61,435 bases of DNA from Streptomyces celluloflavus (lineage in GTDB: Bacteria; Actinomycetota; Actinomycetes; Streptomycetales; Streptomycetaceae). This document shows, piece after piece, positions 10,137 to 53,264 of the stretch (position 1 is its first letter; each line of letters opens with the position of its first letter). Both the position numbers and the translations under genes were made by a program. Location of the stretch: NCBI GenBank assembly GCA_000720995.1, contig JOEL01000037.1, positions 1-61,435 on the forward strand, read 5' to 3'. Under the pieces are notes generated by a model, which was given only the letters and a program-made list of their open reading frames with translations, was not told where the DNA came from and ran no database searches.

Positions 10137-11399
10137 GTGACGGCATTGGGCATGTTCGAAAAGGATCCACACCACGGCCACAACTTACGCGAATGGCTCA
10201 CACTCACGGGCCGTAAGCGGATTCTGTTCGTCGCACACACCGTGACGTACGCGAAGCGGCTGCAAGAGGTGTGCGCACTGCTGGAGTCGGACCTGCGGAT
10301 CCAGATGGTGTTCACCGCGCCGCCGCACCCGTTCAGCGACGGCGTGGCGCAGTTTCTCCACCGGCTCGGCAGCGCGGTGCTGCCCTGGAGCGAGGCGGTC
10401 CGGATGGAGTTCGATCTCGCGTTGGCGGCAGGGCCACGGGGCATGGGCGAGATCCGGGCGCCCCTGATCACGCTGCCGCACGGTGCCAACTACCTCAAGC
10501 GCGTGACCGAGGGGGCGGACACTCGCGTGGCGGGGCTCGGGCGGCAGGACATCATCCCGGACGGCCGGGAGCTGCCCGCCGCGGTGGTCCTGCCCCACCG
10601 GGACCACCTCGGCGAGCTGGCGCACTCGTGCCCGGAGGCCCTGCCGGTGGCGGCCGTGATCGGCGACCCCGTCCACGACCGCATCGTGGCCAGCCTCCCG
10701 CTGCGTCGCGCCTACCGCCGGGCGCTGGGCCTCCGGAAGGGGCAACGGCTCGCCGCCGTCGTCTCCACCTGGGGCAGGCGTTCCTCCTTCGGGTCCATCG
10801 AATCCCTGCTGCCACGGCTGCTGGGCGAGCTGGCGGGGAAGAACCGCCGGGTGGCCGTCCTGGTCCACCCCAACGTCTGGTCCGGGCACGGCGCCTGGCA
10901 GGTACGGTCCTGGCTTGCGCAGTGCGAACAGCGCGGCATCGCGGTGGTGCCACCGGAAGCGGACTGGCGGCCCGTGCTGATCGCGGCGGACTGGATCATC
11001 GGCGACCACGGCTCCGTGACCTTGTACGGGACGCTGACCAAGGCCCCGATCTTGCTGGCCGCATCGCCCGAGCAGGAGATCAACCCCGCCTCACCGGCCG
11101 CCGCGCTCGCGCTGACGGCCCCGGCGCTGTCCCCCGCGCACTCCCTCAAGAGCCAGTTGGCGTACGCCGCGGTCGAGTACCGGCACCGGCAGCGGACGGA
11201 ATACGCGGCCATCGCCGCCCGCATCACCTCCGAGCCGGGGCGGTTCAGCCAGAACATGCGCAGGCTGCTCTACCGGAACCTCGGCCTCGGCCAGCCCGCA
11301 CACCCGGCCACCACCCGCCAACTGCCCCTGCCGCCGCAGCTGGCGGCGTGGGCCGCGGCACCCGGCGCCGGGGACCTGGGAACGGAGGTGCCGGCATGA
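10137..11399 (+). CDS. GT-B-fold glycosyl/glycerophosphotransferase-like protein
   Basis: This 420-aa protein has a two-lobed GT-B pattern. The N-lobe begins RKRILFVAHTVTYAKRLQEV; the C-lobe ends with ADWIIGDHGSVTLYGTLTKAPILLA, which resembles the GD-(H/x)-S-S loop of CDP-glycerol glycerophosphotransferases and UDP-GlcNAc 2-epimerases. A middle stretch LITLPHGANYLK and RLAAVVSTWGRRSS fit the lobe boundary. No signal peptide or membrane segment is seen. GTG 10137 is chosen because GGGGGG lies 5 bp upstream; the frame stays open far upstream, but without coding character. Substrate and pathway are unknown. The stop overlaps the next gene by 4 bp, so the two products probably work together. Confidence 0.65.
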   Translation: MTALGMFEKDPHHGHNLREWLTLTGRKRILFVAHTVTYAKRLQEVCALLESDLRIQMVFTAPPHPFSDGVAQFLHRLGSAVLPWSEAVRMEFDLALAAGPRGMGEIRAPLITLPHGANYLKRVTEGADTRVAGLGRQDIIPDGRELPAAVVLPHRDHLGELAHSCPEALPVAAVIGDPVHDRIVASLPLRRAYRRALGLRKGQRLAAVVSTWGRRSSFGSIESLLPRLLGELAGKNRRVAVLVHPNVWSGHGAWQVRSWLAQCEQRGIAVVPPEADWRPVLIAADWIIGDHGSVTLYGTLTKAPILLAASPEQEINPASPAAALALTAPALSPAHSLKSQLAYAAVEYRHRQRTEYAAIAARITSEPGRFSQNMRRLLYRNLGLGQPAHPATTRQLPLPPQLAAWAAAPGAGDLGTEVPA

Positions 11400-12136
11400 C
11401 GAGTCCGCGGAACGCCGCGGCACCGCGGCCCGAAGTGCCGCCGCCCGCGGCCCCGCCGCCCACCACGCCGGTCCGGGCCGCCGCGCCCCGGCCCCCGGTG
11501 CCATGGACGCATCCGGAGTGGGCGCGGGCCGAGTGGACGCGGGCCGCGTGGGCACGGGCGGAGTGGGTGTACCGGGGCCGGCGAATGGTGCGGGTGCGGG
11601 CCGGGCTGCCCGGCAGCCTGTCCGCCACCGGTATCCCCCGCTCCGTACCGGCGCTCACGCTGTTCGCCGCCACGCGCACCGGCGGGTACACCGCGGTGGC
11701 CCGCGTCGCCGGAGCCGCCGGAGGGAGCGGGGTCCGGCCCGACGTGACAGGACCGCCGGATAGCGCACGCCCACCGGACGACCTCGACGAGCACTTCGCC
11801 GTGGATGCCGAATCCGGTGCGGCGGACCGCTGGCTGGACTGCGCGGACGTACTGCACGGACACCGGCCCCGGCCGGAACGGGCCGCACTGCGCTGGGTCG
11901 AGAACGTACTGACCCGTCGCACCGGCTGCCGGCTCGCCGCGCTTCCGCTGCCCGACGGCGGCTGGGCGGTCGCGGAACGCACCGGCAGCCGCCGGCTGCC
12001 GCCCTCCGCGTCGGCGTCCGGCCGGCCGCTGACGCCCATGGAGTGTTCCCTGGTGGCGTCGTGTCTGCACGGGCTGCTGGTGGCGGGCGACGCAGGGGAG
12101 GCGCTGCTGTCCCTCACTGTGCTGCCGGTCAGCTAG
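11396..12136 (+). CDS. unknown protein coupled to the GT-B-like gene
   Basis: I do not recognise this 246-aa family. ATG 11396 overlaps the preceding stop (ATGA), indicating translational coupling to the GT-B-like protein. The first 40 residues are Pro/Ala-rich. They are followed by a short Trp repeat (units like EWARA and EWTRA, about residues 38-58) encoded by 15-nt tandem repeats. The rest (VYRGRRMVRVRAGLPG to the C-terminus, with WVENVLTRRTGCRLAALPLPDGGWAVAERTG) looks like a soluble alpha/beta domain. No signal peptide, no membrane segment. Its 3' end overlaps the convergent NB-ARC gene by 8 bp. Confidence 0.7.
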   Translation: MTSPRNAAAPRPEVPPPAAPPPTTPVRAAAPRPPVPWTHPEWARAEWTRAAWARAEWVYRGRRMVRVRAGLPGSLSATGIPRSVPALTLFAATRTGGYTAVARVAGAAGGSGVRPDVTGPPDSARPPDDLDEHFAVDAESGAADRWLDCADVLHGHRPRPERAALRWVENVLTRRTGCRLAALPLPDGGWAVAERTGSRRLPPSASASGRPLTPMECSLVASCLHGLLVAGDAGEALLSLTVLPVS

Positions 12137-14435
12137 GACGGTCCCCGGGGGGATCTGCTGAATCTGCCGGATCTACTGAACCGGCCGGGTCTGTTGCGCC
12201 GGCCGGACCTGACGGCTCAACGGGCCCGGCGGGCTGAATGGGCTGACCCGATTCGACAGGTTCGGCGGGCCCGGCAGGCCCAACGGGTTCGTCGGATCCC
12301 GTCACCCCGGCCAGCAGATCCCCCACCCGGCGTGCGTCGGACGGGCTCTGCCGCTCGTACAGGGCCCGGGAACGCTCGTAGAAGCCTCGCGCGACGGCGA
12401 GGTCGGCGTGTTCCCGGGCGCAGGTGCCGAGCAGCTCCAGCGTCCTGGCCTGCCAGTGCGCGGCGCCCGCCGCCTCGAACACCGCACCCGCGTCCGCGAG
12501 TTGGGCCATACCCGACTCGTACGCGCCGGTCAGCACCCGGGCCCGGCCGAGGAGGGCGAGCGCCCGCGCGGCGTCGTAGGGGTCGTCCACCGCGAGCAGC
12601 GCTTTGTGGGCCCGCGCGAAATACTCCGCGGCCCGTTGCCCGGTCCGCGCACCGGGCCGTTCCGCGTCCCCGTCCGCCAGAACCATCTCACCCAGCACGA
12701 TCCGCGACAGGGCGGCCCCCCGCGGATAGCCGACCGCCTCCCAGCTGTCTATCGCCCGCGCCAGAAAGGACGTGGCCTCCGCAGGACGCCCGGCCTGCCA
12801 GTGGGCCGTGCCGAGTCCGTGCAGCGCCTGGCCTTCGTCCCGTACGTCCCCGGCCTCACGGGCGGCGTCGAGCGACCGGGTGAACCAGGTGATGGCCTCC
12901 TCGACCCGCCCGGCGGCGTTGAAGCCGATGGCGCCGGAGTTGAGCATCTGCCGTTCCGCCGTACGGTTTCCGGCCCGCCGCGCGGCACGCAGACCGGTTT
13001 CGTGTGCGTCCGCCCACAGCTCGAAGTAGCGCAGCCGGTGGAACAACGGCCACATCGCGTCGACGAGTTGCCAGGCGAGGTCGTCCCACTGTCGTGCGTA
13101 GGCGGCGCGCACGGCGGCCAGCAGGTCGTTCCGTCGGGTTTCGAGCCAGTTCAGCGCGTCGGTCTCCCGGGCGAAGGGACGGAGCGCATCCGGCGGGAAC
13201 CGGTACTCCCTGGACAGGGTGAACTGACGTGGGGACAGCAGCCGCTGGGCCTCCGTCGCGGTGGCCAGATACCAGTCGCACACCCGCCGCAGCGTCTCGT
13301 CGAGGGCCGCCGCACTCTCCTCGGTCCGCCCCCGTTCCTCGGCGTGCAGCCGGACCAGATCGTGGAAACGGTAGGCGTCCGCGCCGATGTCCTCGACCAG
13401 ATTGGCCTCCACCAGTGCGTCGAGCAGCCGGCCCGCCTCCACCAGCGGGATCGCGCAGACCGCCGCCGCGATACGGGCCTCGAAGGTGCGGACCGGCAGC
13501 AGCGCGAGGCGCCGGTAGAGCCGCCTGACGTCAGCGGTCAGCACCGCGTACGACTCGTCCAGTGCGTTGTACACCGAGGACTCCGATTCCCCTGTGATGG
13601 CCAGCGCCGCCAGCCGGCCGCGTTCCTGGGCGAGCGCGTCCACCATGGCGCTCATCGGCTGCCGGGGTCTGGAGGCGAGACGCGCGGACGCCAGGCAGAC
13701 CGCCAGGGGCAGCCCGGCACAGAGCGAGACCACCTCGTCCGCCTCACTGGACTCGCTCTCCACGCGGTCCTGACCGATCCCGCGGGACAGGATCTCCACG
13801 GCGGCCGCCCGGTCCAGCAGGCCGAGCTGGTAGTAGAGCGCACCGTCGGCGCGCAGGCCGGTGAGCCGGTGTCTGCTGGTCGCGACGACCAGACCGCCCT
13901 GGCCACCGGGCAGCAGCGGCCGGGCCTGGGCGGCGGAGAAGACGTTGTCGAGCATGACGGCGATACGCAGCGCCGCGGTGACCGAACGCCACAGCGCGGT
14001 CTGCTCCCCCAGGTCGGCCGGTACCGGACCGACACCGAGCGCTCGCAGGAATTGGCCGAGTATCTCGCCGGGCGCGGCCGGGCCCTCCGGTGAGTGGCCG
14101 CGCAGATCCGCGTACAACTGGCCGTCCGGAAACCGCTCCGCCGCGTCTCTCAGCCACCGCGACACCAGCGCCGTCTTGCCGATACCGGCCGTCCCGCTGA
14201 CCACGATCAGCGGGGTGGCGGTGTCCGGGCAGCGGGCGTAGAGCTCGTCCAGGGCCGACAGCTCGCGCTCACGGTTGGTGAAGTGCGGGGAAACGGGGAG
14301 CAGTTGACGCGGTACGGGGAGGACCGGCGCGGCGGCCCCCGGGTAGATGTGAAGCCCGCCGCGGACCGCCCCGGCCTGGACGCTCGGCCCGTTGATCCAG
14401 GCCGAGCCCCCTATGGCGTTCACATCCCGATGCAT
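12129..14435 (-). CDS. NB-ARC/TPR (NLR-like) protein with N-terminal RHIM-like amyloid motif
   Basis: This 768-aa STAND ATPase has no DNA-binding domain. Residues 1-32 form a short Gly/Asn-rich motif with the core INGPSVQAGAVRGGLHI (residues 14-30), a pattern resembling the RHIM-like amyloid signalling motifs described at the N-termini of bacterial NLR proteins. NB-ARC follows: PRQLLPVSPHFTNRERELSALD, Walker A GTAGIGKT (81-88), MLDNV (Walker B region), GLPLAV, and RFHDLVRLHAEER. The C-terminal half is TPR repeats, ending in a Gly/Pro/Glu low-complexity tail. I chose ATG 14435 because the frame upstream is only tandem repeats coding for Arg/Thr/Pro. It may act as a sensor that oligomerises; the partner is not obvious nearby. 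Confidence 0.85.
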   Translation of the reverse strand: MHRDVNAIGGSAWINGPSVQAGAVRGGLHIYPGAAAPVLPVPRQLLPVSPHFTNRERELSALDELYARCPDTATPLIVVSGTAGIGKTALVSRWLRDAAERFPDGQLYADLRGHSPEGPAAPGEILGQFLRALGVGPVPADLGEQTALWRSVTAALRIAVMLDNVFSAAQARPLLPGGQGGLVVATSRHRLTGLRADGALYYQLGLLDRAAAVEILSRGIGQDRVESESSEADEVVSLCAGLPLAVCLASARLASRPRQPMSAMVDALAQERGRLAALAITGESESSVYNALDESYAVLTADVRRLYRRLALLPVRTFEARIAAAVCAIPLVEAGRLLDALVEANLVEDIGADAYRFHDLVRLHAEERGRTEESAAALDETLRRVCDWYLATATEAQRLLSPRQFTLSREYRFPPDALRPFARETDALNWLETRRNDLLAAVRAAYARQWDDLAWQLVDAMWPLFHRLRYFELWADAHETGLRAARRAGNRTAERQMLNSGAIGFNAAGRVEEAITWFTRSLDAAREAGDVRDEGQALHGLGTAHWQAGRPAEATSFLARAIDSWEAVGYPRGAALSRIVLGEMVLADGDAERPGARTGQRAAEYFARAHKALLAVDDPYDAARALALLGRARVLTGAYESGMAQLADAGAVFEAAGAAHWQARTLELLGTCAREHADLAVARGFYERSRALYERQSPSDARRVGDLLAGVTGSDEPVGPAGPAEPVESGQPIQPAGPVEPSGPAGATDPAGSVDPADSADPPGDRPS

Positions 14436-14451
14436 CCGCGCCCCCGTCCCG

Positions 14452-14561
14452 GTACGTCGTGAATCAGTACGCCGTGGAGCAGTGCTACGTCGTGGAGCGG
14501 TACTACGTCGCAAAGCGGTGCGTGGTGGAACGGTGCGTCGTGGAACAGTGCGCGGCGGAGT
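14452..14561. repeat. tandem 15-18 nt repeats upstream of the NLR-like gene
   Basis: Seven imperfect units of the form GT(A/G)CGTCGTGGAACA run across this stretch, two of them expanded to 18 nt by an inserted TAC. They lie between the divergent starts of the NLR-like and AfsR-like genes. They are open in both strands but give only Arg/Thr/Pro strings, so I treat them as non-coding. Confidence 0.85.
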
Positions 14562-14717
14562 GACCCCGCCGTCTCGCCCGCCTGTCCCCTGCCCGGCCGT
14601 CCCCCGGCGCCACACCCCGCGCTCCCAAGCCACTTACCCCCATGCCGCTTGCCCCCATGCGCCCTTTTTGATCACATCAGCATTACCCATGAACGGCCAA
14701 GAGGAGTCCACTCCCGC

Positions 14718-14750
14718 ACCCAACAGGCCGGATTCAGTCGCCTGTTGGGT
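14718..14750. promoter_or_regulatory. perfect 11-bp inverted repeat in the AfsR-like leader
   Basis: ACCCAACAGGC (14718-14728) and GCCTGTTGGGT (14740-14750) are perfect inverted copies with an 11-bp spacer. The centre-to-centre spacing of 22 bp (two helical turns) fits a dimeric regulator. It ends 76 bp before the GTG of the AfsR-like gene; it could also form an RNA hairpin in the leader. Confidence 0.65.
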
Positions 14751-14826
14751 AAGCCCCTGGCCACTCCCTCCGGCGAGTGACATGCTCACAAAGGTGGTGG
14801 GCTGCGCCGTCGAGGGGGAGGCGCCG

Positions 14827-17800
14827 GTGGAAATTTTCGTGCTCGGTCCCGTCTGTCTCGGATCGCGGCAACGCCGGATCGCACTGCGCTCCGACAAGGA
14901 GCGGTGCGTCCTTGCCTCGCTGGCCTTGGCGGTGGGCCGCCCCGTGGCCCTGGACACTCTCGTCGGACGCCTCTGGGACGGCGATCCGCCCGATAGAGCA
15001 CGCCAGGCCGTCCACACCTACGTCTCACGTCTCCGTTCGGATCTCCGCCGGGCCCACGCGAGTACCGGCACCCACACCGACGCCACGACCGGCACCTCCG
15101 CGCCCGCCATCACCCACCACGCCCACACCTACACCCTCGACGCCGATCCGGACCGTATCGACTGGCACCGCTTCCAGCGCCTCGCCACACAGGCCCGGTC
15201 ACTGTCCCACGACGGGGACGACGAAGCCGCCGCCGCCCTGCTGCACGAGGCGGAGCGGCTCTGGCACGGGGAGGCTCTCGCCGGGCTGCCGGGCAGCTGG
15301 TCCGAGCGGACGCGTACAAGCCTCGCGGAGAAACGGCTCGGCGTCACCTCGTCGCGTATCGCCATGGAGCTGCGGCTGCGGCGCTTCAGCGATCTCGTCG
15401 GCGATCTGTCCTCCCTCGCCGGCCAGTACCCCGACGACGAGAGCCTGTTGGGCCAGCTCATGGTGGCGTACTACGGCTGCGGCCGGCACGCGGACGCGCT
15501 GCGCGTCCACGAGGAGGCACGCCGCCGGCTGCGGGCGGAACTGGGCGCCGTTCCGGGCGAGGAACTCACCCGGATCCACCGGCACATCCTGCACCGCGGC
15601 CCCCTGGAGGACCTCCTCCCGGGCGCCGCCGCGGACCACGGAACCCCCTCCGCCGCGCCGCCCCGTAACCTCCCCCGCCATATCCCCCTCATCGGCCGGC
15701 ACACGGAGATGCGGCGGCTCCGGGCCGCCGTCGACGCGGTCATGAACAGCGGCGCGGGCAGCGGCATGGACAGTGGGGGTGGCGGTCACATCGTGGCCCT
15801 GGAGGCGATCTCCGGCATGGCCGGCGTCGGCAAGACCGCCATGGCGGTCAGCGCGGCCCATTTGCTCGGCGAGCGCTTCCCCGACGGGCAGTTGTACCTC
15901 GACCTACGGGCGCACGCCCAGGTCCAGGACCCGCTGAGCGCGGGCGCGGCGCTCGCGGTGCTGCTCCGCCTCATGGGGGTCCCGGCCGACGGCATCCCCT
16001 CCGACATCGAGGAACGCACCGCCCTGTGGCGCACCGTCCTGACGCGCCGGCGCATGGTCATCGTCCTCGACGACGCGGCCGGCACCGCCCAGGTCCGACC
16101 GCTGCTCCCCGGTTCCTCCCCGTCCCTCGTCATCATCACCAGCCGGCGCCGGCTGTCCGGCCTGCCCGGCGCCCGCACGCTCGCCCTGGACGTGCTACCG
16201 CCGGACGACGCGGTCGCGCTCTTCAGGGAGTTCGCCGGTGCGGACCGCACCCGGGAATCGGACGTCCGGGAAATCGCCCGTATCGTCGGTCTTTGCGGCT
16301 ATCTGCCCTTGGCGATCGAGATCGTCGCCAATCGCTTCAGCGCCCGTCCCTCGTGGACCCTGCGCATCCTTCGCGACCGGCTCTCCCGGGGTCCTGGCCG
16401 ACTCGGCGAATTCCGGGACGGGAACTCGGAGATCGCCCGCGCATTCGAACTCTCCTATCAGACCCTGACCGTTGATCAGCGATCCATGTTCCGCCGGCTC
16501 GGGCTCCACCTCGGCGCGGAGTTCGGGCCGCATGCCGCGGCGTCCCTGACCGGTCTGCCGCTCGACCAGGCCGAATGGCACCTCGAAACACTCCTGCACT
16601 GCCATCTGCTCCAGGAACCCGCGCCCAACCGGTACCGATTTCATGATCTGTTGGGGGAGTACGCACGCGTCCTGGCATTCTCCGAGGACAGCACGGAAGA
16701 GCGCGACGCCGCCCTGCGCCGCCTGATCGACTTCTATCTCTTCGCCGCGGTCCGGGCCGACACTCTCCTCTACCCACGGCGCTTCCGCCTGCCGGTCCAG
16801 GAAATGGCCGATCTTGCCCTCTCTCCGCTGCCCGTCTGGCGCTCCGCCGAGGACGCCAAGGACTGGCTGACCACCGAGCGGTCCAACCTGCTGACCGCCG
16901 AGCGGCACGCCCGCACCCACGGGGCGCCCGACCGGGCCGCACTGCTCAGCCATGCGCTGGCCGGTTTCCTGGACGCCGAATGCCACTGGACGGACACCGT
17001 CCGCATGCACCGGCACGCCGTTGACCACTGGGAACGCGCCGACGACCGGCGTGCGTTACGGCTCGCCCTGCTCGACCTCGGCGCGACCCACGCGAACACC
17101 AGCGACTACGCCCAGGCGGCGGAGACCGGCCGCCGGGCACTGGCGCTGGCCCGCGCCGCCGGCGACACGGACACCACGGCAGCGGCCCTCCGCGCCCTGG
17201 GCGTCCTGCACTGGCACCTCGGAGAGAACGACGAAGCACTCGCCCTCTACGAGGAGACCCTGGAAATCCAGCTGGCCTCGGGAAACGCCTGGGACCTGGC
17301 CAGGACACAGAACAATATCGCCATCTCATTCCTCTCTCTCGGAGACCACCACCGGGCCCGCAAATATTTCCACGAGGCAATCGAGAATTTCCAGCTGTCG
17401 GGCGATCAGCGGAATCTGGCGAAGACTCTCAATAATTTCGGCGATTTACATACGCTGCTGGGCGAGCAGCGACTCGCCCGCCAGACTTACGAAGAGTCGC
17501 TCCGTATCGCAAAATCCAGCGGAAGCCATTCCGACCAGGCCACCATCCAGGCAAATCTGGCCGGCTTCCTGGCCGCCACCGGGGATGTCGAACTCGCGCT
17601 GGACATGTATCAGGAATGCCTCTTCATCTTCCGGCGGCTCGGCGACCGGAAGAACGAGGCGAACAGTCTCATCGGACTGGGCAGGGTCCATCACCTCTTG
17701 GGCCGTCCCGTCGAGGCCGCCACGTACCACGGGAAGGCCCTGGAGCTGGCACGCAACATCGGCGCGGCCCACGAGGAGGTCGAAGCCCTGCGCCGGCTGG

Positions 17801-18081
17801 GCCAGGCGGAGGCCGATATGCAGCAGCTGCCGGACGCCGCCGAGCACCTGGAGGCGGCGATCGCCGCGGCCCGGCGGATGCGCTCCCCGGAGGAGGAGGC
17901 CAGGGCGGCGGACACGCTGGCCGAGGTCCGCGTCCACGAGGGCCGCACCGAATCCGCCCGCGCGTTATGGCAGCAGGCGTACGACATCTTCTCTTCGCTC
18001 GACCAGAGTGAGGCGGCCCGCATCAGTGAATGCTTGAGTAATATGCCGGGGCCATTTTCGCCCGGCAATGAGAATCGGTAA
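14827..18081 (+). CDS. AfsR-like SARP-BTAD-NB-ARC-TPR transcriptional regulator
   Basis: This 1084-aa regulator has an OmpR/SARP-type winged helix (residues about 1-95, opening IFVLGPVCLGS), a bacterial transcriptional activation domain (about 105-250), NB-ARC (Walker A GMAGVGKT at 330-337, Walker B VIVLDDA near 411, GYLPLAIE near 490) and a long TPR array from about 690 to the end. I chose GTG 14827 because GAGGGGGAGG lies 5 bp upstream and the winged helix begins at once. Three TTA codons (17056, 17446, 17965) make translation dependent on the rare bldA tRNA. Codon use becomes AT-richer in the TPR part. A secreted-peptide gene lies 168 bp downstream. Targets and ligand are unknown. Confidence 0.9.
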   Translation: MEIFVLGPVCLGSRQRRIALRSDKERCVLASLALAVGRPVALDTLVGRLWDGDPPDRARQAVHTYVSRLRSDLRRAHASTGTHTDATTGTSAPAITHHAHTYTLDADPDRIDWHRFQRLATQARSLSHDGDDEAAAALLHEAERLWHGEALAGLPGSWSERTRTSLAEKRLGVTSSRIAMELRLRRFSDLVGDLSSLAGQYPDDESLLGQLMVAYYGCGRHADALRVHEEARRRLRAELGAVPGEELTRIHRHILHRGPLEDLLPGAAADHGTPSAAPPRNLPRHIPLIGRHTEMRRLRAAVDAVMNSGAGSGMDSGGGGHIVALEAISGMAGVGKTAMAVSAAHLLGERFPDGQLYLDLRAHAQVQDPLSAGAALAVLLRLMGVPADGIPSDIEERTALWRTVLTRRRMVIVLDDAAGTAQVRPLLPGSSPSLVIITSRRRLSGLPGARTLALDVLPPDDAVALFREFAGADRTRESDVREIARIVGLCGYLPLAIEIVANRFSARPSWTLRILRDRLSRGPGRLGEFRDGNSEIARAFELSYQTLTVDQRSMFRRLGLHLGAEFGPHAAASLTGLPLDQAEWHLETLLHCHLLQEPAPNRYRFHDLLGEYARVLAFSEDSTEERDAALRRLIDFYLFAAVRADTLLYPRRFRLPVQEMADLALSPLPVWRSAEDAKDWLTTERSNLLTAERHARTHGAPDRAALLSHALAGFLDAECHWTDTVRMHRHAVDHWERADDRRALRLALLDLGATHANTSDYAQAAETGRRALALARAAGDTDTTAAALRALGVLHWHLGENDEALALYEETLEIQLASGNAWDLARTQNNIAISFLSLGDHHRARKYFHEAIENFQLSGDQRNLAKTLNNFGDLHTLLGEQRLARQTYEESLRIAKSSGSHSDQATIQANLAGFLAATGDVELALDMYQECLFIFRRLGDRKNEANSLIGLGRVHHLLGRPVEAATYHGKALELARNIGAAHEEVEALRRLGQAEADMQQLPDAAEHLEAAIAAARRMRSPEEEARAADTLAEVRVHEGRTESARALWQQAYDIFSSLDQSEAARISECLSNMPGPFSPGNENR

Positions 18082-18181
18082 TATTCACCTGGCAAAATCG
18101 ATGGGGACCTGTCCGAAGGATCGTGACACATATCCGTACGCCCCGATCCTCTCGCTTTGCACACGCCACACTTTTACGCTT

Positions 18182-18209
18182 TTGCATCGCCAATCCCTCC
18201 CGTGATAAT
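18182..18209 (+). promoter_or_regulatory. candidate promoter for the small secreted peptide
   Basis: TTGCAT (18182-18187) and GATAAT (18204-18209) are spaced by 16 bp. GATAAT is close to the vegetative -10 consensus. Transcription would start near 18216, giving a leader of about 34 nt before the GTG at 18250. Confidence 0.55.
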
Positions 18210-18242
18210 CCTCTGTTTCGAAGATCCCCTTTCGCATACGAG

Positions 18243-18256
18243 GATTCACGTGAAAC
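18243..18256. promoter_or_regulatory. parS-like 14-mer overlapping a start codon
   Basis: GATTCACGTGAAAC differs at one position from the Streptomyces parS palindrome. The GTG start of the small peptide gene lies inside it. It may be a weak ParB site or chance; a perfect copy lies at 28157. Confidence 0.4.
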
Positions 18257-18459
18257 CACGCATGAGGCCCTGTGTCGCCGTTGCAATTACGGGCTTCGCC
18301 CTCATCGGGACGCAGATAGCCATGGCCTCGGCCGCATCGGCAGCAGAGTCGACCGGTGCCCACCGCACCATGGTCAGCCCGGTCCAGGCGCAGCACCCGG
18401 CCTCGGACTCCGCCGAGCAGAGGGACATCTGCATCCCCACCTCCGCACCCGCGGCCTGA
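18250..18459 (+). CDS. small secreted peptide precursor (69 aa) downstream of the AfsR-like regulator
   Basis: This short gene encodes 69 aa with a clear Sec signal peptide: a basic N-terminus (KPRMR), a hydrophobic core CVAVAITGFALIGTQIAMA and a likely cut after ASAASA, near residue 30. The mature part would be about 39 aa (starting AESTGAHRTMV), hydrophilic, with a single Cys and the tail DICIPTSAPAA. GAGGA lies 5 bp before the GTG start, a -10/-35 pair sits upstream and a perfect 18-bp terminator stem follows the stop, so it is its own transcription unit. I do not recognise the family. Position after a TPR-containing regulator suggests a signalling peptide, but that is inference. Confidence 0.75.
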   Translation: MKPRMRPCVAVAITGFALIGTQIAMASAASAAESTGAHRTMVSPVQAQHPASDSAEQRDICIPTSAPAA

Positions 18460-18471
18460 CACTCGGACACC

Positions 18472-18509
18472 CGGCGTCGGCCGTCGTCAGATGACGACGG
18501 CCGACGCCG
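18472..18509 (+). terminator. strong stem-loop terminator after the small peptide gene
   Basis: A perfect 18-bp stem (left arm from 18472, right arm to 18509, 2-nt apical GA) begins 12 bp after the TGA stop. It is followed by GGCGTTTGTA, a weak T-rich stretch. This is one of the strongest hairpins in the window. Confidence 0.85.
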
Positions 18510-18746
18510 TGGCGTTTGTACGAGGCGACGAGTCCGTGGCCGTCGGGCGGCGTACCGGGGGTCTCCCACCCCGCCCGAGCGGACCTCCCCGCTCCGTTTC
18601 CGCTCTCCTCGCCGAAGCCGTTCGCACCGCTGTGACCAGGCACGATAGCCCGTTCGGCGGTAATGACAACGGTCACCGGTGCAGCCTTTGGATCTTTCGC
18701 CGAAGTGCGGTTTGCTTCCCAGCGACGACCCAGGAAGGAGCGCGCC

Positions 18747-19775
18747 ATGACCGAGCACGCCCACGGGCACGACGAGGGCACAGCCCACGCGCACAGCCAT
18801 TCGCACGCCGTCTCGCCGGACGCCGACCGGCGCTGGCTGCGCGCCGCGCTCATCCTGCTCACTGCGTACATGACGGTCGAAGTCGTCATCGGCTTCGTGG
18901 CGCAGTCGCTGGCGCTGATCTCCGACGCCGCCCATATGCTCACCGACGCGGTCTCGATCGTGCTCGCGCTGATCGCGATGCGGCTCGCCGCCAAACCGGC
19001 CCGCGGCGGTTACACCTACGGCCTCAAGCGCGCCGAGATCCTCTCCGCCCAGGCCAACGGCCTCACGCTGCTGCTGCTCTCCGTCTGGCTGGGGTACGAG
19101 TCGATCGTCCGGCTGATCTCGCCACCCGCGGTCACCGGCGGGCTGGTGCTGGTCACCGCGCTGGCCGGGATCGTGGTGAACCTCATCTGCGCCTGGATGC
19201 TCTCCAAGGCCAACCGCGCCAGCCTGAACGTCGAGGGCGCCTACCAGCACATCCTCACCGACCTGTTCGGCTTCATCGCCACCGCGGTCTCCGGTCTGAT
19301 CGTGCTGACCACCGGCTTCGCACGGGCCGACGCGATCGCCTCGCTCGTGGTCGTCGCGCTGATGCTGAAGGCCGGTACGGGGCTGGTCCGCGAGTCCGGC
19401 CGGATCTTCATGGAGGCCGCGCCGGCCGGTATCGACCCGGACGCGCTGGGCGATCACCTCGTCGCGGCCGACGAGGTCGTCGAGGTCCACGACCTGCACA
19501 TCTGGCAGATCACCTCCGGGCAGTCGGCGCTCTCCGCGCACATCCTGGTGGCGCCGGGCGGCGACTGCCACAAGGTCCGCCGCTCCCTCCAGGAACTGCT
19601 GAGCGCGGAGTACGGCATCACACACGCCACCCTCCAGGTCGACCACGTCGGTGAACAGGGCTCCGCCGACGACGTACTGCGGCTGACCGCCGGCCCCGCG
19701 CCCGCCCCGCTCCCCGCCGAGCACTGCGAGGACACCCACGGCCCCGTCCACCGGCCGGGCCCACACCGGCACTGA
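18747..19775 (+). CDS. CDF-family cation efflux protein (ZitB/CzcD type)
   Basis: This 342-aa inner-membrane antiporter exports Zn2+ or similar divalent metals in exchange for protons. The N-terminus is His-rich (HAHGHDEGTAHAHSHSH). Six membrane segments follow. The paired metal-site motifs are SDAAHMLTD in helix 2 and YQHILTDLFG in helix 5. The cytoplasmic C-terminal domain carries VHDLHIWQITSG, the CDF hallmark, and the extreme tail is again His-rich. AAGGAG lies 6 bp before ATG 18747; the frame is open upstream to 18663 but without a binding site. It is monocistronic. Only a poor palindrome (about 18658-18678) precedes it, so metal regulation is not shown. Confidence 0.93.
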   Translation: MTEHAHGHDEGTAHAHSHSHAVSPDADRRWLRAALILLTAYMTVEVVIGFVAQSLALISDAAHMLTDAVSIVLALIAMRLAAKPARGGYTYGLKRAEILSAQANGLTLLLLSVWLGYESIVRLISPPAVTGGLVLVTALAGIVVNLICAWMLSKANRASLNVEGAYQHILTDLFGFIATAVSGLIVLTTGFARADAIASLVVVALMLKAGTGLVRESGRIFMEAAPAGIDPDALGDHLVAADEVVEVHDLHIWQITSGQSALSAHILVAPGGDCHKVRRSLQELLSAEYGITHATLQVDHVGEQGSADDVLRLTAGPAPAPLPAEHCEDTHGPVHRPGPHRH

Positions 19776-48834: not shown

Positions 48835-51800
48835 CTACGCCGGTATGTCGGAGCGCAGCAGTTCGTCCGGCAGCGGCTCGTCCAGCGGCTCCGCCAGCAG
48901 CTCCGCGATACCGGCCGCCTGGTGCGCGCCCCGCCGCCGCAGTGCCGAGCGCGCCGACTCCAGTGCGTGGTGCGCGCCGGCGGTGTCGCCCAGGGCCAGC
49001 AGCGCCCGGCCGCGCGCGGCCTGCGCCAGCCCCCGGCAGACGTCGTCCCCGAGGTCGCGTTCGATGGCCAGTGCCTGCGCCGCGCAGTCCAGCGCCGCCG
49101 AGTCGCGGCCCCGGGCCAGCTCGCAGTGGGCCAGCCGGGCCCAGGCCAGCGCCTCCCAGCGCGGGTTGCCGGCGCACCGGTGATGCCGCTGCGCCTCCCG
49201 CAGATGGGCCGCCGCCTCGCCCGCCCGGCCGTCCGCCAGCATCCCGCAGCCGGTCTGGTAGAGCACCTGCGCCGTCGTCTCGGGGCACCCCAGCTGCCGG
49301 GCGCTCGCCAGCGCCTCGGCCATGGCCTGGTACCCCTGGCGGCGCTGCCCGAGGACGAGATACGCGCGGGCCAGATGGGCGCGGACCCGGATCGCGTCGG
49401 CCCGCCCGCCGAGCGCCTCGAAGCGCGTGTACGCCTGCCCCAGTACGGGCAGCGCCTCCCCGGCCCGGCCCATGGCGAGCAGCACCATGGCCAGTTCGTG
49501 CGCGGCCTCCGCACCGACCAGCCGGTCGCCCGCCCGCTCGGCCAGCCGCAGGCTCTCGCGCAGCATCCGGGCGGACCGCTCATAGGTCTGGGAGCCGTGG
49601 CCGGGTGCGCCGAGGAGGCGGAGCGCACGGGCCGTGGCCACGTCGTCGCCGCGCCACCGGGCCCGCTCCAGGGCGAGCCGGGCCAGCGGTTCCAGACCGC
49701 GGTGGCGTGCGGTGCCGCCGAGGAGGTGGGACCAGGCGGTGAGCAGATCGACGGCCTGGCGCAGCAGGTCGCCGGGACAGTCGTCCGCATCGGCGGCGTC
49801 CTCGGCCCGGTGCGCCGCCGCCCCCGCCCACGCGTCGCCCGCGCGTTCCGCGTCCCCGCCCGCGCCGCGGTGCCGTCCGCCGGCCGGACCGGTGCACCCG
49901 TCGCCCTCCGGGGCGCCGTCCGCGCGCCGCTCCGCGCCGTCGGCCGGGCCCGGCCCGTAGCGCAGCACCCGGTCCACGAACGCGTACAGCCGCGCGTCCG
50001 CGTCGTCCAGCCATTCGCGCGAGCTCGCCGCGTCCAGCAGCGCGCGGCCCGGCATCGCCGGACGGTGCAGCAGGCTGGGCAGAACGCTGTGCGGTTTGCT
50101 GTTGCGCACCACTTCCAGGACGGTGGCCAGGACGAAGTCGAGGAAGCGGCGCCGCGCCTCGCACCGCTCGCGCGGGCTGTCGGTGCGCTCGCTCAGCCGT
50201 CGCGCGAAGAGCCTGACCAGGCCGTGGTAGTGGTAGCGGTCGGTGCCCTGGCACTCCAGCAGCCCCGCGTCGACCAGGCGCTCCACCCGCTCCTCCGCCT
50301 CGTCCTCGCTGATCCCGCCCAGCAGTACGGCCGCGGCTCCCCGGCAGAACGACGGCATATCGGCGAGGGCCAGGATGCGGAACGTCCGGGCGAGCTCGGG
50401 GTCGAGGGCCTCGTAGCCGATCCGGAACGTCGCGTGCACGGCCAGGTCGCCGACCCGCAGTTCGTCCAGCCGGCGCCGCTCGTCGCGCAGCCGCGCCGCG
50501 AGGTCGGCGAGGGTGCGGCCGGGCCGGGCGGCGAGGCGGGCGGCGGCGATGCGGAGCGCGAGCGGCAGTCCGCCGCAGTCCGCGACGAGTTCCCGCGCGG
50601 CGCACCGCTCCGCGGCGACCCGGTCGCGGCCCAGCACCGCGGCCAGCAGCCCGACGCCCTCCGCCTCCTCCAGTACGCCCACCTCGACGGTGCGCGCACC
50701 GGACAGCGCGATCGTCCGCGAACGGCTGGTGACCAGCACCGCGCAGCCCGGTGTACCGGGCAGCAGCGGCCGGATCTGCGCGGCGTCCTTGGCACTGTCG
50801 AGCAGGATCAGCATCCGGCGGCCCGCGAGCAGCGAGCGGTAGAGCGCCGCCAACTGGTCGAGGCCGTCCGGCAGGGCGCTGTCGGGGACGCCCAGGGCGG
50901 ACAGGAACCGGGTCAGTACGTCGGCGGTGTCGGCCGGGACCGGATCGCAGCCGTGCAGATCGACGTAGAGCTGGCCGTCGGGGAAACGGGCGCGGGCCTG
51001 CTGCGCGACATGGACGGCCAGCGCGGTCTTCCCGGCCCCGCCGAGCCCGGTGAGCACGGCCACCACCGGCGCCCGCCCGGCCGCGGCCCCGTCCAGCAGC
51101 TCGTGCAGCCCGGCCGCGAGCTCCCGCCGCCCGGCGAAGTCCGCCATGGCGGAGGGCAGCTGTGCGGGCACGGGGATCCGCTGGGCGGACGCCGCCGGCT
51201 GCCGGGCCGGGATACCGGAGGGGGCCTGGGGGCGGGGCGCGCAGGGCGGGGCGGATGCCCCCGGTATTCGCGCGGCCGGTGAGTCCGGTGAGGTCGGTGA
51301 GTCCGGTGACGGCAGGGAGGCTGCCGGCGTTCCCGGTGCCGGTGACGCGTCCGATGCCGCCCCGCGCGGCGGGGTCTGCCGGGGCACGCCGGGTGCGGGT
51401 ACGGCGCCGCCCCCGCGACCCGCGCGGGGGTCCGGCCTGGTCGCCGGGGCGGACATCGTTGTCCGCGCGCGCGCCGGAGTGACGATCCCCCGCGTACGGC
51501 TGGATCGCTGTGCGGGGACCGGGAGATCGGGCCCGGCGGACTCGGCGGACCGGCCGGTCCGCACCGGTATCTGCGGCTGCCGCTGCTGCTGTATCCGCCG
51601 TTCCGTCTGCGGCTGTGTTTGTGACTGCGGCTGTGCGAGGCGGGTGGCGGGCGCGCCCGACAGCAACCGGGCGTGCAGGGAACCGAGTTCGCGCCCCGGC
51701 CGGATGCCGAGTTCGGTGTCCAGGAAGCGCCGGGTGGCCTCGTACACGGCCAGCGCGTCCGCCCGGCGGCCGCTCTGGTCCAGTGCCCGCATCAGGAGTC

Positions 51801-52557
51801 CCTGGGTGCGTTCGCGTAACGGCTGCTCGGTGGCGAACGCGCGCAGCGACGCCACCACCTCGCTCGCCCGGCCCAGCTCCAGCGCGCAGGCGAAGGCGTT
51901 CTCCTGGGCGGTGACCCGCAGTTCCGTGAGCCGTTCGCGCTGCAGGTGCGGGTACGGACCGGACAGTCCGGCCAGCGGTGTGCCGCCCCACAGCCCGAGG
52001 GCGCGGGAGAGTTCCTCGTACGCCCCGCGGGTGTCGCCCCCGGACCGCAGCCGGGCCGCGACCGCCAGCCGGGCCTCGAACTCCGCCGCGTCCAGCGCCT
52101 GGACGGGGGTCCGCAGCGCATAGCCGTCGCCCTCGGACACCAGCAGCCGCGCGGGCGCACGGGCGCCCCGCTCCGGCTCCAGCAGCGTGCGCAGCCGCGA
52201 CACATAGGTCCGGACGGTGCCCATCGCCCGTTTCGGCGGCGCCTGCTCCCACAGCGCGTCGACCATCTCCCACACCGGCACCGCCCGGCCGCCGCGCAGC
52301 AGCAGCATCGCCAGCACCACGCGTTGCTGCGGCGAGCCCGCGTTCAGCGCCTGACCGTCCCGCAGCACCCGGACGGATCCCAGGACCTGGAACCGGAACG
52401 GACCACGCTCACCGCTCCGGTACTCGGCCCCGTATCCACTCCCGTGGCCGCCCGCGCGCCCGTGCCCGCCCTCGTATCCGGGGCCGTCCGCGTACCCCTC
52501 CTCGTAGCCCAGCCCCTCCTCGTACCCGTACCGGGTGGCACCCCTGTCCGTGGTCAC
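48835..52557 (-). CDS. SARP-NB-ARC-TPR (AfsR-like) regulator within the injection-system locus
   Basis: The 1240-aa regulator has a Gly/Tyr/Glu-rich N-terminal extension (about residues 8-50, units like GYEEG), a SARP winged helix (from FRFQVLGSVRVLRDG), a BTAD domain, a long Pro/Ala/Arg-rich disordered linker (about 300-470), NB-ARC (Walker A GLGGAGKT, ILLDSAKDAAQI, GLPLAL, RYHYHGLVRLFARR) and TPR repeats. GTG 52557 is the likely start; the frame is open 60 bp further. One TTA codon (51817-51819, in QPLRERT) ties it to bldA. It is divergent from the candidate effector across a 912-bp repeat-rich region and probably controls it. Confidence 0.88.
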   Translation of the reverse strand: MTTDRGATRYGYEEGLGYEEGYADGPGYEGGHGRAGGHGSGYGAEYRSGERGPFRFQVLGSVRVLRDGQALNAGSPQQRVVLAMLLLRGGRAVPVWEMVDALWEQAPPKRAMGTVRTYVSRLRTLLEPERGARAPARLLVSEGDGYALRTPVQALDAAEFEARLAVAARLRSGGDTRGAYEELSRALGLWGGTPLAGLSGPYPHLQRERLTELRVTAQENAFACALELGRASEVVASLRAFATEQPLRERTQGLLMRALDQSGRRADALAVYEATRRFLDTELGIRPGRELGSLHARLLSGAPATRLAQPQSQTQPQTERRIQQQRQPQIPVRTGRSAESAGPDLPVPAQRSSRTRGIVTPARARTTMSAPATRPDPRAGRGGGAVPAPGVPRQTPPRGAASDASPAPGTPAASLPSPDSPTSPDSPAARIPGASAPPCAPRPQAPSGIPARQPAASAQRIPVPAQLPSAMADFAGRRELAAGLHELLDGAAAGRAPVVAVLTGLGGAGKTALAVHVAQQARARFPDGQLYVDLHGCDPVPADTADVLTRFLSALGVPDSALPDGLDQLAALYRSLLAGRRMLILLDSAKDAAQIRPLLPGTPGCAVLVTSRSRTIALSGARTVEVGVLEEAEGVGLLAAVLGRDRVAAERCAARELVADCGGLPLALRIAAARLAARPGRTLADLAARLRDERRRLDELRVGDLAVHATFRIGYEALDPELARTFRILALADMPSFCRGAAAVLLGGISEDEAEERVERLVDAGLLECQGTDRYHYHGLVRLFARRLSERTDSPRERCEARRRFLDFVLATVLEVVRNSKPHSVLPSLLHRPAMPGRALLDAASSREWLDDADARLYAFVDRVLRYGPGPADGAERRADGAPEGDGCTGPAGGRHRGAGGDAERAGDAWAGAAAHRAEDAADADDCPGDLLRQAVDLLTAWSHLLGGTARHRGLEPLARLALERARWRGDDVATARALRLLGAPGHGSQTYERSARMLRESLRLAERAGDRLVGAEAAHELAMVLLAMGRAGEALPVLGQAYTRFEALGGRADAIRVRAHLARAYLVLGQRRQGYQAMAEALASARQLGCPETTAQVLYQTGCGMLADGRAGEAAAHLREAQRHHRCAGNPRWEALAWARLAHCELARGRDSAALDCAAQALAIERDLGDDVCRGLAQAARGRALLALGDTAGAHHALESARSALRRRGAHQAAGIAELLAEPLDEPLPDELLRSDIPA

Positions 52558-53264
52558 AGCCTGTCCACCCCTTTGCCCGATTGGCCCATGGCACCCCGAG
52601 ATTCTGCCCTTGCGCACCTACTCAGATGTACCGGATGTACTCGACGTCACCATCGGAGCGTCCTTTTCTTGCTGCGCGGTCATCCTCGCCGGGTGACGGG
52701 AACCGAGTAACGGCCGGTCGTATTCCCCCCGTTCCCAGAACCACGGGGCTTCGCCCCGGCGTTCCCGGACCTCCTGTGATGCCTGGCACTTCTCCGGAAG
52801 GTGCCCGAAAGGGCAGCGGCGGTTGCCCTTTCACCCCTGCGGAACCGTAAACACGTCATCGGGCGTCCCTGTGGCCCGGGACGGCACCCCACCACCTCGC
52901 CTTGCCCTTCCGGTCACCGCGCGCTGCCCGCCGGGACGTCCGCCCGGCTCTGTACCCGGCGCCCCGGACCGGCCATCGTCTACGCCGACGCCGGGTCCCC
53001 CGCCGCCGTCCGCCGGATGCGGACCCCCGGACGAACCGGACCGCAGGCACGGACACTGAAATCCCGAAGCCGGGGCAGCGAAGAGGCGGTGGACCTCGGG
53101 CGCCGGCTCCGGACTCCCCGTTCCGGGCGTCCGGCCTCGGGGCTCCGGCCCCCGTCCGCCGGCCTCGGCGGAGCGTCAGGTGACCGAACGGGCAGCCCCC
53201 TGTGCCCCCACTGACGTCCGTTCGTCTCTACATCCGCGCCGGACCGTACGCGATCGTGGGGAAA

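Follow-up and report, generated by a model that had tools for sequence, protein, structure and literature searches.

The window analysed here, a stretch of 61,435 nucleotides of Streptomyces celluloflavus DNA, contains the features collected in Table 1. A reading made from the sequence alone (hereafter, the sequence-only reading) had described a SARP-NB-ARC-TPR gene, a gap of 168 nt from the regulator stop to the next start, and a gene for a 69-aa peptide with a ribosome-binding site and an 18-bp stem, and this layout was recovered in full. The N-terminus of the peptide displays, by a simple hydrophobicity score and by eye, a basic n-region, then a hydrophobic stretch and an AxA-type c-region. 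The hairpin located 3′ of the peptide gene has a fold energy of -42 kcal/mol and no T run behind it. No Rfam match was obtained between positions 14000 and 19500. The inverted repeat of the region between the divergent genes was not seen in six aligned relatives, and no conserved SARP-type direct repeat was seen upstream of the peptide gene in six aligned sequences.

Table 1. Features of the locus, with positions in the window.
Feature	Position	Strand	Remarks
Protein X, 420 aa, predicted GT-B fold	10137..11399	+	Convergent to the NB-ARC-TPR gene; model
Divergent NB-ARC-TPR protein, no DNA-binding domain detected	12129..14633	-	ORF of 834 aa; homology favours ATG at ~14435 as start
Region between the divergent NB-ARC-TPR genes	14436..14826		11-bp perfect inverted repeat, 14718-14728/14740-14750
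SARP (DNA-binding + BTAD)-NB-ARC-TPR activator, 1084 aa	14827..18081	+	GTG start; Pfam, model; proposed peptide receptor
GAGGA ribosome-binding site of the peptide gene	18240..18244	+	
Peptide precursor, 69 aa, signal-like N-terminus	18250..18459	+	GTG to TGA; recurs after homologous regulators
CIPT core codons, constant part of the precursor	18430..18441	+	Comparison across loci
Perfect 18-bp hairpin past the peptide gene	18472..18509	+	Arms 18472-18489/18492-18509; terminator-like

Concerning the regulator, BTAD, NB-ARC and TPR domains were detected with Pfam (TPR_12 at 1e-45), the Walker A motif is intact (GMAGVGKT), and the protein has the SARP + NB-ARC + TPR architecture of the large SARP/STAND activators. 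It scored 516 bits with the NCBIfam AfsR equivalog model, whose cutoff is 1430, so it can be called AfsR-like, not an AfsR orthologue. The structure model contains about nine TPRs (residues 701–1058). In fold comparisons of the predicted model, the DNA-binding part resembled the AfsR structure 8k60 (TMt 0.90), and the TPR part resembled, among others, TPR proteins whose solved structures include a bound partner (LGN/Pins; APPBP2 with an RxxGP degron), these TPR matches being generic and the TM score low across the whole model. A PADLOC search with the regulator and the divergent protein returned only the generic TPR model and, within the TPR part, a single weak match to PDC-S39.

The DNA downstream of homologous regulators was searched for a small ORF with a cysteine-containing core (Cys-core ORF). 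With a fixed criterion, whose motif was written after the data were seen, such an ORF was found after 50 of 79 regulators (duplicate genomes included), compared to 5 of 461 other long ORFs of the same loci, 1.6% of 1580 shuffles and none of the 15 outgroup regulators with enough downstream DNA; the remaining assignments were made by a looser motif and by eye. When the motif was derived from the first loci only, the later loci gave 36/58 positives vs. 12/434 in controls, or 34/58 vs. 3/434 if a signal-like stretch was also required; in two of the 36 positives the motif match sits in the leader, not in the core. Extended by the looser motif and by eye, the count was 65 of 72 non-duplicate members of one regulator clade, which has 100% tree support. 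The co-conservation of regulator and peptide expected from the sequence-only reading was thus borne out in the Streptomyces and Actinacidiphila loci examined. In the 65 loci, the ORF starts at a median of 132 nt past the regulator stop, and the precursor has a median length of 47 aa (range 20–116); by the simple score, 60 precursors contain a hydrophobic stretch and five do not. A regulator standing alone, named beforehand as an argument against the pairing, was rare: among the seven clade members without the usual Cys core (L080, L119, L140, L145, L146, L150 and L158), only L140 had no small-ORF candidate, L145 had a signal-like ORF with the core absent, and the other five had an odd or Cys-less peptide, which in L119 carries two tandem units (IYIPM/IHIPM). 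In a plasmid record (L232), the script found no ORF by any criterion, and the DNA 41 nt past the regulator stop reads, by eye, MKKTIYLATMVLVALACIPSVTYGG....

The constant part of the precursors is a Cys tetrapeptide, which is CIPT in the peptide of the window and CLPT, CMPT, CIPS, CIII, CIMI, CIAS, CMLF and others in other subclades. The core is clade-specific, with a leader, length and tail that vary freely. The tail DICIPTSAPAA, suggested earlier as possibly invariant, did not prove to be so: only the tetrapeptide was kept across loci, and for this reason the active part probably spans a few residues rather than the 39 of the supposed mature peptide. On the regulator tree, core position 4 requires 14 changes vs. 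38.9 in 30 shuffles (minimum 35), and position 3 requires 11 vs. 25.9; these counts were relied on instead of a five-class grouping made after viewing the tree. Trees built from each of the three regulator domains (DNA-binding, NB-ARC and TPR) fitted the core about equally, with no usable difference. CIPT is encoded by 8 different 12-mers in 10 loci, which indicates that selection acts on the protein. The core is the exact C-terminus in 18 of 65 precursors and lies elsewhere up to 56 residues ahead of the end; this free position, together with the varying leader and tail, is as expected if recognition is limited to a short released peptide. Two other interpretations of the cysteine were considered. 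A lipoprotein was discarded by eye against the lipobox consensus, as many different residues precede the core Cys (I, T, A, V, G, R, E, H and S among them), and a prenylated CaaX-like C-terminus was not adopted, as 47 precursors have residues beyond the core.

A second arrangement (type II) was recognised, partly by eye, in 13 of 14 loci, where a convergent small gene ends in or near RWMW, QWMW or QVMW; ECIW is a further ending. The criterion for this gene selected 6 of 629 long ORFs, all six belonging to these regulators; among the first nine loci, 6 were assigned by this criterion, written after viewing, and 3 by eye. Two of the loci (L212 and L215) are near relatives with an ambiguous start codon. 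In L221, a signal-like leader goes with three tandem QVMW units; like the tandem units of L119, these recall repeated pheromone precursors. Among 17 paralogue loci of the window's own genome, none of nine recognised NB-ARC ORFs was accompanied, on whichever strand, by a small ORF bearing one of the two cores.

The activator could have the small gene as its output, in the manner of AfsR and afsS; the gene would then encode a secreted or membrane peptide produced while the SARP is active, whose core acts on another target. It has its own ribosome-binding site and hairpin and, like afsS after afsR, lies on the same strand and the same side. PMC10936776 states that AfsR activates afsS. Moreover, joint descent of linked genes would equally yield the agreement of core and regulator tree, which alone is thus no proof of recognition; the argument for recognition rests on the contrast of the kept core with the fast-changing leader. 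However, the constant part comes down to four residues that shift with the regulator clade, the type II small gene is on the opposite strand, and AfsS is not known to be secreted or to carry a core of this kind. An output gene seems, on balance, rather unlikely.

The pairing described in the sequence-only reading does recur, but the unit is usually a four-gene module, to which the divergent NB-ARC-TPR gene and X also belong. A homologue of the divergent gene was found at the same place in 70 of 79 ingroup loci (4 duplicate genomes included) and in none of 17 outgroup loci, and an X homologue in 67 of the 79. X has no Pfam or NCBIfam family; the nearest folds to its model (pLDDT 86) include UDP-GlcNAc 2-epimerase and TagF. 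When the coding-like ORFs from 62 loci were compared, no families other than the NB-ARC-TPR proteins and X were present in more than 7 loci; the recurrent families included no export, protease or import gene as a part of the module, and no radical SAM maturase, the latter judged by family recurrence. Five regulators of one subclade have neither partner gene within the 3.5–7 kb examined and keep the small ORF (four Cys-core, L150 without), which indicates that the peptide is tied to the SARP regulator.

A RiPP-like precursor, whose Cys or Trp-Met-Trp core would be modified by X to give a signal or a natural product, would fit the linkage of X and its predicted GT-B fold, close to enzymes of UDP-sugars and CDP-glycerol. 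It would also fit the clear homology of both NB-ARC-TPR proteins to HaaT, a TPR protein of cyclophane RiPP clusters, at scores below the model cutoff (431 and 258 vs. 1125 bits). HaaT and FxSxx RiPP systems have a radical SAM maturase in the cluster. We consider such a precursor quite unlikely, given the subclade whose regulators have the small ORF but, in the flanks examined, neither X nor the divergent gene, and the loci where X adjoins NB-ARC-TPR genes and neither a SARP gene nor a convincing Cys-core peptide was found. The same two sets of loci bear on the divergent NB-ARC-TPR protein as the peptide receptor, controlling the SARP protein: its regular presence in the ingroup and absence from the outgroup would agree with this role, but five related loci retain the regulator and its small ORF and lack this gene in their flanks, and it occurs with X and no regulator where no convincing Cys-core peptide was found, so that this role has very little probability.

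Sixteen further loci were sampled with X as the anchor, and 5 from genomes already sampled were left out of the count. The preset criterion selected 5 of 6 new loci of the first arrangement (type I); in one of these (L246) the match lay in the leader and CIMI was recognised by eye as the core. In the sixth (L252), CMVD was found, also by eye, in a signal-like ORF. The regulators of the new type I loci are 46–81% identical to earlier ones, so this check is only partly independent. Among the new type II loci, 1 of 5 was selected, three (L254, L256 and L258) show the tail on visual inspection or over a longer search interval, and in L257 no tail was found.

In one close pair of precursors (L102/L120), 6, 8 and 18 substitutions were counted at codon positions 1, 2 and 3, an excess at position 3; most of the 17 pairs compared were too diverged or too alike to be informative. 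Hardly any credence can be given to small ORFs that are chance or a cis-acting intergenic feature with no translated signal: leaders diverge fast and 9 of 65 precursors have no ribosome-binding site by the score used, but the control and hold-out counts, the synonymous variation within the core and the excess at position 3 speak against it. At the level of sequence, a recurrent module with a conserved core, clade-specific core change and coding constraint is established.

The reading that best accommodates these data, and to which we give somewhat better than even chances, is that of a peptide-gated STAND transcription activator, switched on through its TPRs by a short peptide from an exported precursor. 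The precursor would leave the cell, usually via its signal sequence, and be cut down to a short linear peptide with the CIPT core; this peptide would re-enter the cell and bind the TPR superhelix of the neighbour regulator. Binding would relieve NB-ARC/TPR autoinhibition and allow ATP exchange, and the freed SARP domain would recruit RNA polymerase, the likely sites being its own module and other targets. The divergent NB-ARC-TPR protein may be a co-receptor or modulator, and X a linked GT-B-type enzyme modifying either a cell-surface glycan, as an output, or the peptide. Export, trimming, import, binding and activation, like the roles of the divergent protein and X, are steps that we infer.

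The module is a strong candidate for a novel form of peptide communication in bacteria, in which the core appears matched to its own regulator. Whether it amounts to an undescribed class of ribosomal peptide pheromones of Actinobacteria seems close to evenly balanced; in such a class, STAND transcription activators resembling NLRs would decode a four-residue signal (Cys-x-x-x in type I, x-x-Met-Trp in type II), the circuit would further include a second STAND protein and a protein with a GT-B fold from an unnamed family, and channels would be orthogonal between strains and even within a two-module genome. No description of the module was found among the matches listed in the open-access full-text literature. 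The linked, clade-specific tetrapeptide gives dozens of AfsR-like activators a candidate inducer that can be tested directly, the core-regulator match offers a way of naming cognate pairs from sequence, and the peptide is possibly a cheap chemical handle to wake silent Streptomyces pathways. If true, this would be a transcriptional NLR-like receptor of a ribosomal peptide in bacteria.

As regards known systems, the FxSxx-COOH and HaaA/HaaT RiPP systems also link a TPR or NB-ARC-TPR protein to a small peptide; unlike them, the present module has no conserved enzyme gene but X, and its proteins score below the models' cutoffs. NosP of nosiheptide biosynthesis is likewise a SARP, reported to respond to peptidyl ligands, which in that case come from the precursor peptide of nosiheptide. 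AfsR-AfsS and other large SARPs have in common with the module the SARP-NB-ARC-TPR architecture and a small gene just downstream; the difference lies in a regulator far below the AfsR model cutoff and a small gene encoding a signal-like precursor with a clade-specific core. According to PMC10936776, the NOD and TPR of AfsR inhibit the protein, and whether an inducer binds its sensor domain is not known. From the same source, autoinhibition and activation by inducer and then ATP, as in STAND activators of the MalT/GutR type, would be expected here, with the proposed inducer being a ribosomal peptide encoded next door instead of maltotriose or glucitol.

A close parallel is with the RRNPP peptide quorum-sensing systems of Firmicutes (Rgg-SHP, PlcR-PapR, ComR, Rap-Phr), which also combine an adjacent small precursor, a signal-like leader and a cytosolic TPR regulator with a short, often C-terminal active part. 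RRNPP precursors leave the cell through Sec (or PptAB), and the mature peptides bind the TPR domain; in the reading proposed here, export and TPR binding would occur as well. The actinobacterial RRNPP analogue proposed in the sequence-only reading holds for the TPR domain of the receptor, the adjacency and the precursor length, the 69-aa peptide lying within the 10–100 aa of RRNPP precursors, which a few of the 65 loci exceed. It does not hold for the size of the receptor, a STAND NTPase that has 1084 aa and includes a SARP domain, compared to the 250–500 aa given in PMC10075063. Of that interpretation as a whole, the co-conservation stands, and the invariant tail, the simple pair and full agreement with RRNPP criteria do not. 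The module differs further from RRNPP in its two additional linked genes, its Cys or xMW core and its occurrence in Actinobacteria, whose signals are, according to the same source, typically enzyme-made small molecules, oligopeptide signals being the way of the Firmicutes.

The regulator and the small gene were found as proposed in the sequence-only reading, and the ribosome-binding site and 18-bp hairpin of the small gene were confirmed as real. The precursor encoded by this gene is MKPRMRPCVAVAITGFALIGTQIAMASAASAAESTGAHRTMVSPVQAQHPASDSAEQRDICIPTSAPAA. According to Pfam, the regulator combines a SARP DNA-binding/BTAD part with NB-ARC and TPRs. Its Walker A sequence is GMAGVGKT, and about nine TPRs appear in the predicted structure, in which domain packing is unsure because pTM was 0.52 (pLDDT 83).

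Features of the window and their positions
Feature	Position	Strand	Remarks
Protein X	10137-11399	+	420 aa; convergent to the divergent gene
Divergent NB-ARC-TPR gene	12129-14633	-	
Short imperfect tandem repeat	14453-14571		15-18 nt steps; before the regulator, within the divergent ORF's start, itself probably over-extended
SARP-NB-ARC-TPR regulator	14827-18081	+	1084 aa
Small gene	18250-18459	+	69-aa precursor
DNA upstream of the CDF gene	~18660-18700		near-identical in locus L062 (by eye); perhaps a metal-responsive operator
Cation efflux (CDF) transporter gene	18663-19775	+	3' of the peptide gene
Second SARP-NB-ARC-TPR-like ORF	48835-52617	-	~1260 aa; 36-38% identical in parts; no small peptide ORF after it in a scripted scan of its own strand

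Regulator homologues were obtained by nucleotide search in 150 genomes of the genus, and the best of these are followed by small ORFs that have ICIPT, ICIPS, RCIII and similar sequences in common. Such ORFs were again present at the 80 loci named with L-numbers in a scan of genome contigs, which are the best 80 of 522 relatives. In a FastTree phylogeny of 94 regulators, 75 rows formed a single clade with support 100; three of them duplicated other rows and were removed, leaving 72. A constant tetrapeptide with Cys (the core, CIPT in the window) was assigned in 65 of these 72, using a permissive motif and, for part of them, visual inspection, which bears out the co-conservation of regulator and peptide. 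Elsewhere in the clade, the usual Cys core is replaced by a VPC end (L080), tandem IYIPM/IHIPM (L119) or RYMPI (L146); L150 and L158 have a small signal-like ORF without it, and L145 a signal-like ORF of 109 aa, also without it. L140 is the sole clade regulator with no candidate small ORF downstream.

A fixed criterion was matched for 50 of 79 regulators of the Cys-core clade (the ingroup) versus none of 15 outside regulators and 5 of 461 control ORFs, the ingroup limits (L159 and L161 excluded) having been drawn with the loci already known and agreeing with the later tree. The matching ORF was the assigned one in 50/50 cases. In a hold-out test, 36/58 regulators matched versus 12/434 controls, and 34 of the 36 matches were located at the core itself.

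Invariance of the tail DICIPTSAPAA, suggested as a check in the sequence-only reading, did not hold: conservation in the 65 assigned precursors is mainly limited to four residues, and these vary among loci (CIPT in 10, CMPT in 6, CIPS in 5, CMPS, CIII, CIMI and CIAS in 4 each, plus rarer forms; 28 forms in total). Leaders diverge fast even among near relatives, L062 and L103 having a common ARICIPT end and little else, and an identical core may be encoded by differing codons. The core is the exact C-terminus in 18/65 precursors. A hydrophobic stretch occurs in 60/65 and is absent in L064, L124, L125, L130 and L135. Proline-run starts without a hydrophobic leader precede the core in L124 (MFAPPPPPP), L125 (MLDVPPPPPP) and L130 (MIAPPPP), precursors that may leave the cell by another route or act in the cytosol. 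Core type tracks the regulator tree. Such agreement, with which the fast divergence of the leaders contrasts, is also expected from joint descent, which accounts for part of the match and thus slightly reduces confidence in the peptide as a signal.

The regulator-peptide pair recurs, but the unit exceeds it by two linked genes. The divergent NB-ARC-TPR gene lies opposite the regulator in 70/79 ingroup loci (query window left out, four duplicate genomes included) and 0/17 outgroup loci; among the nine misses, L131 and L133 begin too near a contig end to judge, and L080 has the gene farther off (seen in L229). No DNA-binding domain was detected in its product. X occurs in 67/79 ingroup loci, some with incomplete flanks, and in 3/17 outgroup loci (L159, L161, L166). 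Beyond these, no other family of genes exceeded 7 of 62 loci. X gave no Pfam or NCBIfam family at cutoffs and no meaningful PDB sequence match; the folds nearest to its predicted model (pLDDT 86) are UDP-GlcNAc 2-epimerases, teichoic acid polymerase TagF and other GT-B enzymes (TM ~0.4-0.6).

Relatives of X (E <= 1e-20) are present in 70/150 genomes of the genus, and some adjoin NB-ARC-TPR genes where no SARP gene was found. Such pairs, without a SARP match nearby, are L222, L223, L214, L228, L230 and L231, two of these pairs lying on contigs C20 and C55 of the genome from which the window comes. Perhaps STAND proteins have a general partner in an unnamed GT-B-fold family. A similar protein start (MDPVS/MDPIS) is common, by eye, to L070, L074 and L081 (3' of the peptide gene) and to the own-genome NB-ARC protein of L223, and is possibly a recurrent effector-type domain.

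Tracing X relatives of 47-52% identity revealed a second arrangement, in nine loci with the divergent-type NB-ARC-TPR, X and SARP regulator genes rearranged. Convergent with the regulator, the small gene of these loci has RWMW, QWMW, QVMW or ECIW at or near its end, as seen in 9/9 of the first loci (criterion in 6, visual inspection in 3) and 4/5 later ones (criterion in 1). The criterion for this arrangement matched 6/629 long ORFs, all six belonging to these regulators. L221 carries three QVMW units in tandem behind a signal-like leader. The occurrence of this second peptide family, with another ending, on the same chassis is the strongest argument that the peptide acts as the variable signal and is read by the STAND regulator. 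Single genomes may hold two modules: the Actinacidiphila epipremni record set has two of the first arrangement with different loose cores (L154 CILA, L162 CTPS), and genome G155 one of either arrangement (L245, L254).

Beyond co-conservation and clade specificity, we infer a mechanism in which the precursor would be exported and trimmed, and a fragment with the tetrapeptide re-imported as inducer of the regulator. In AfsR, the SARP part is inhibited by NOD and TPR and ATP relieves the inhibition, as PMC10936776 describes, and by analogy the regulator should rest inhibited and need an inducer. The TPR domain would be its natural site, since the structural neighbours, although such TPR matches are generic, include LGN/Pins solved with bound partners and APPBP2 with the RxxGP degron. 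In the subclade L078, L150, L153, L156 and L165, neither partner gene lies in the 3.5-7 kb examined while the small ORF is kept (Cys core in four, L150 without). This makes the SARP protein a likelier putative reader than the divergent one.

Among the matches listed in open-access full text, neither the titles nor the abstracts displayed report a peptide or module of this kind, though a description may exist in subscription papers or preprints. A hunt for signalling-peptide genes in one Streptomyces strain gave no strong candidate according to PMC11019849. The only defence models matched by the regulator or the divergent protein are generic TPR ones, and the regulator belongs to the class of large SARP/STAND proteins and is not AfsR. 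Compared with the five RRNPP criteria set out in PMC10075063, the module agrees in three and departs in receptor length; on export, the observation is the hydrophobic stretch of most precursors, a putative signal. The suggestion of an actinobacterial RRNPP analogue therefore survives in part: the module would work like an RRNPP system, yet it is not classed as one.
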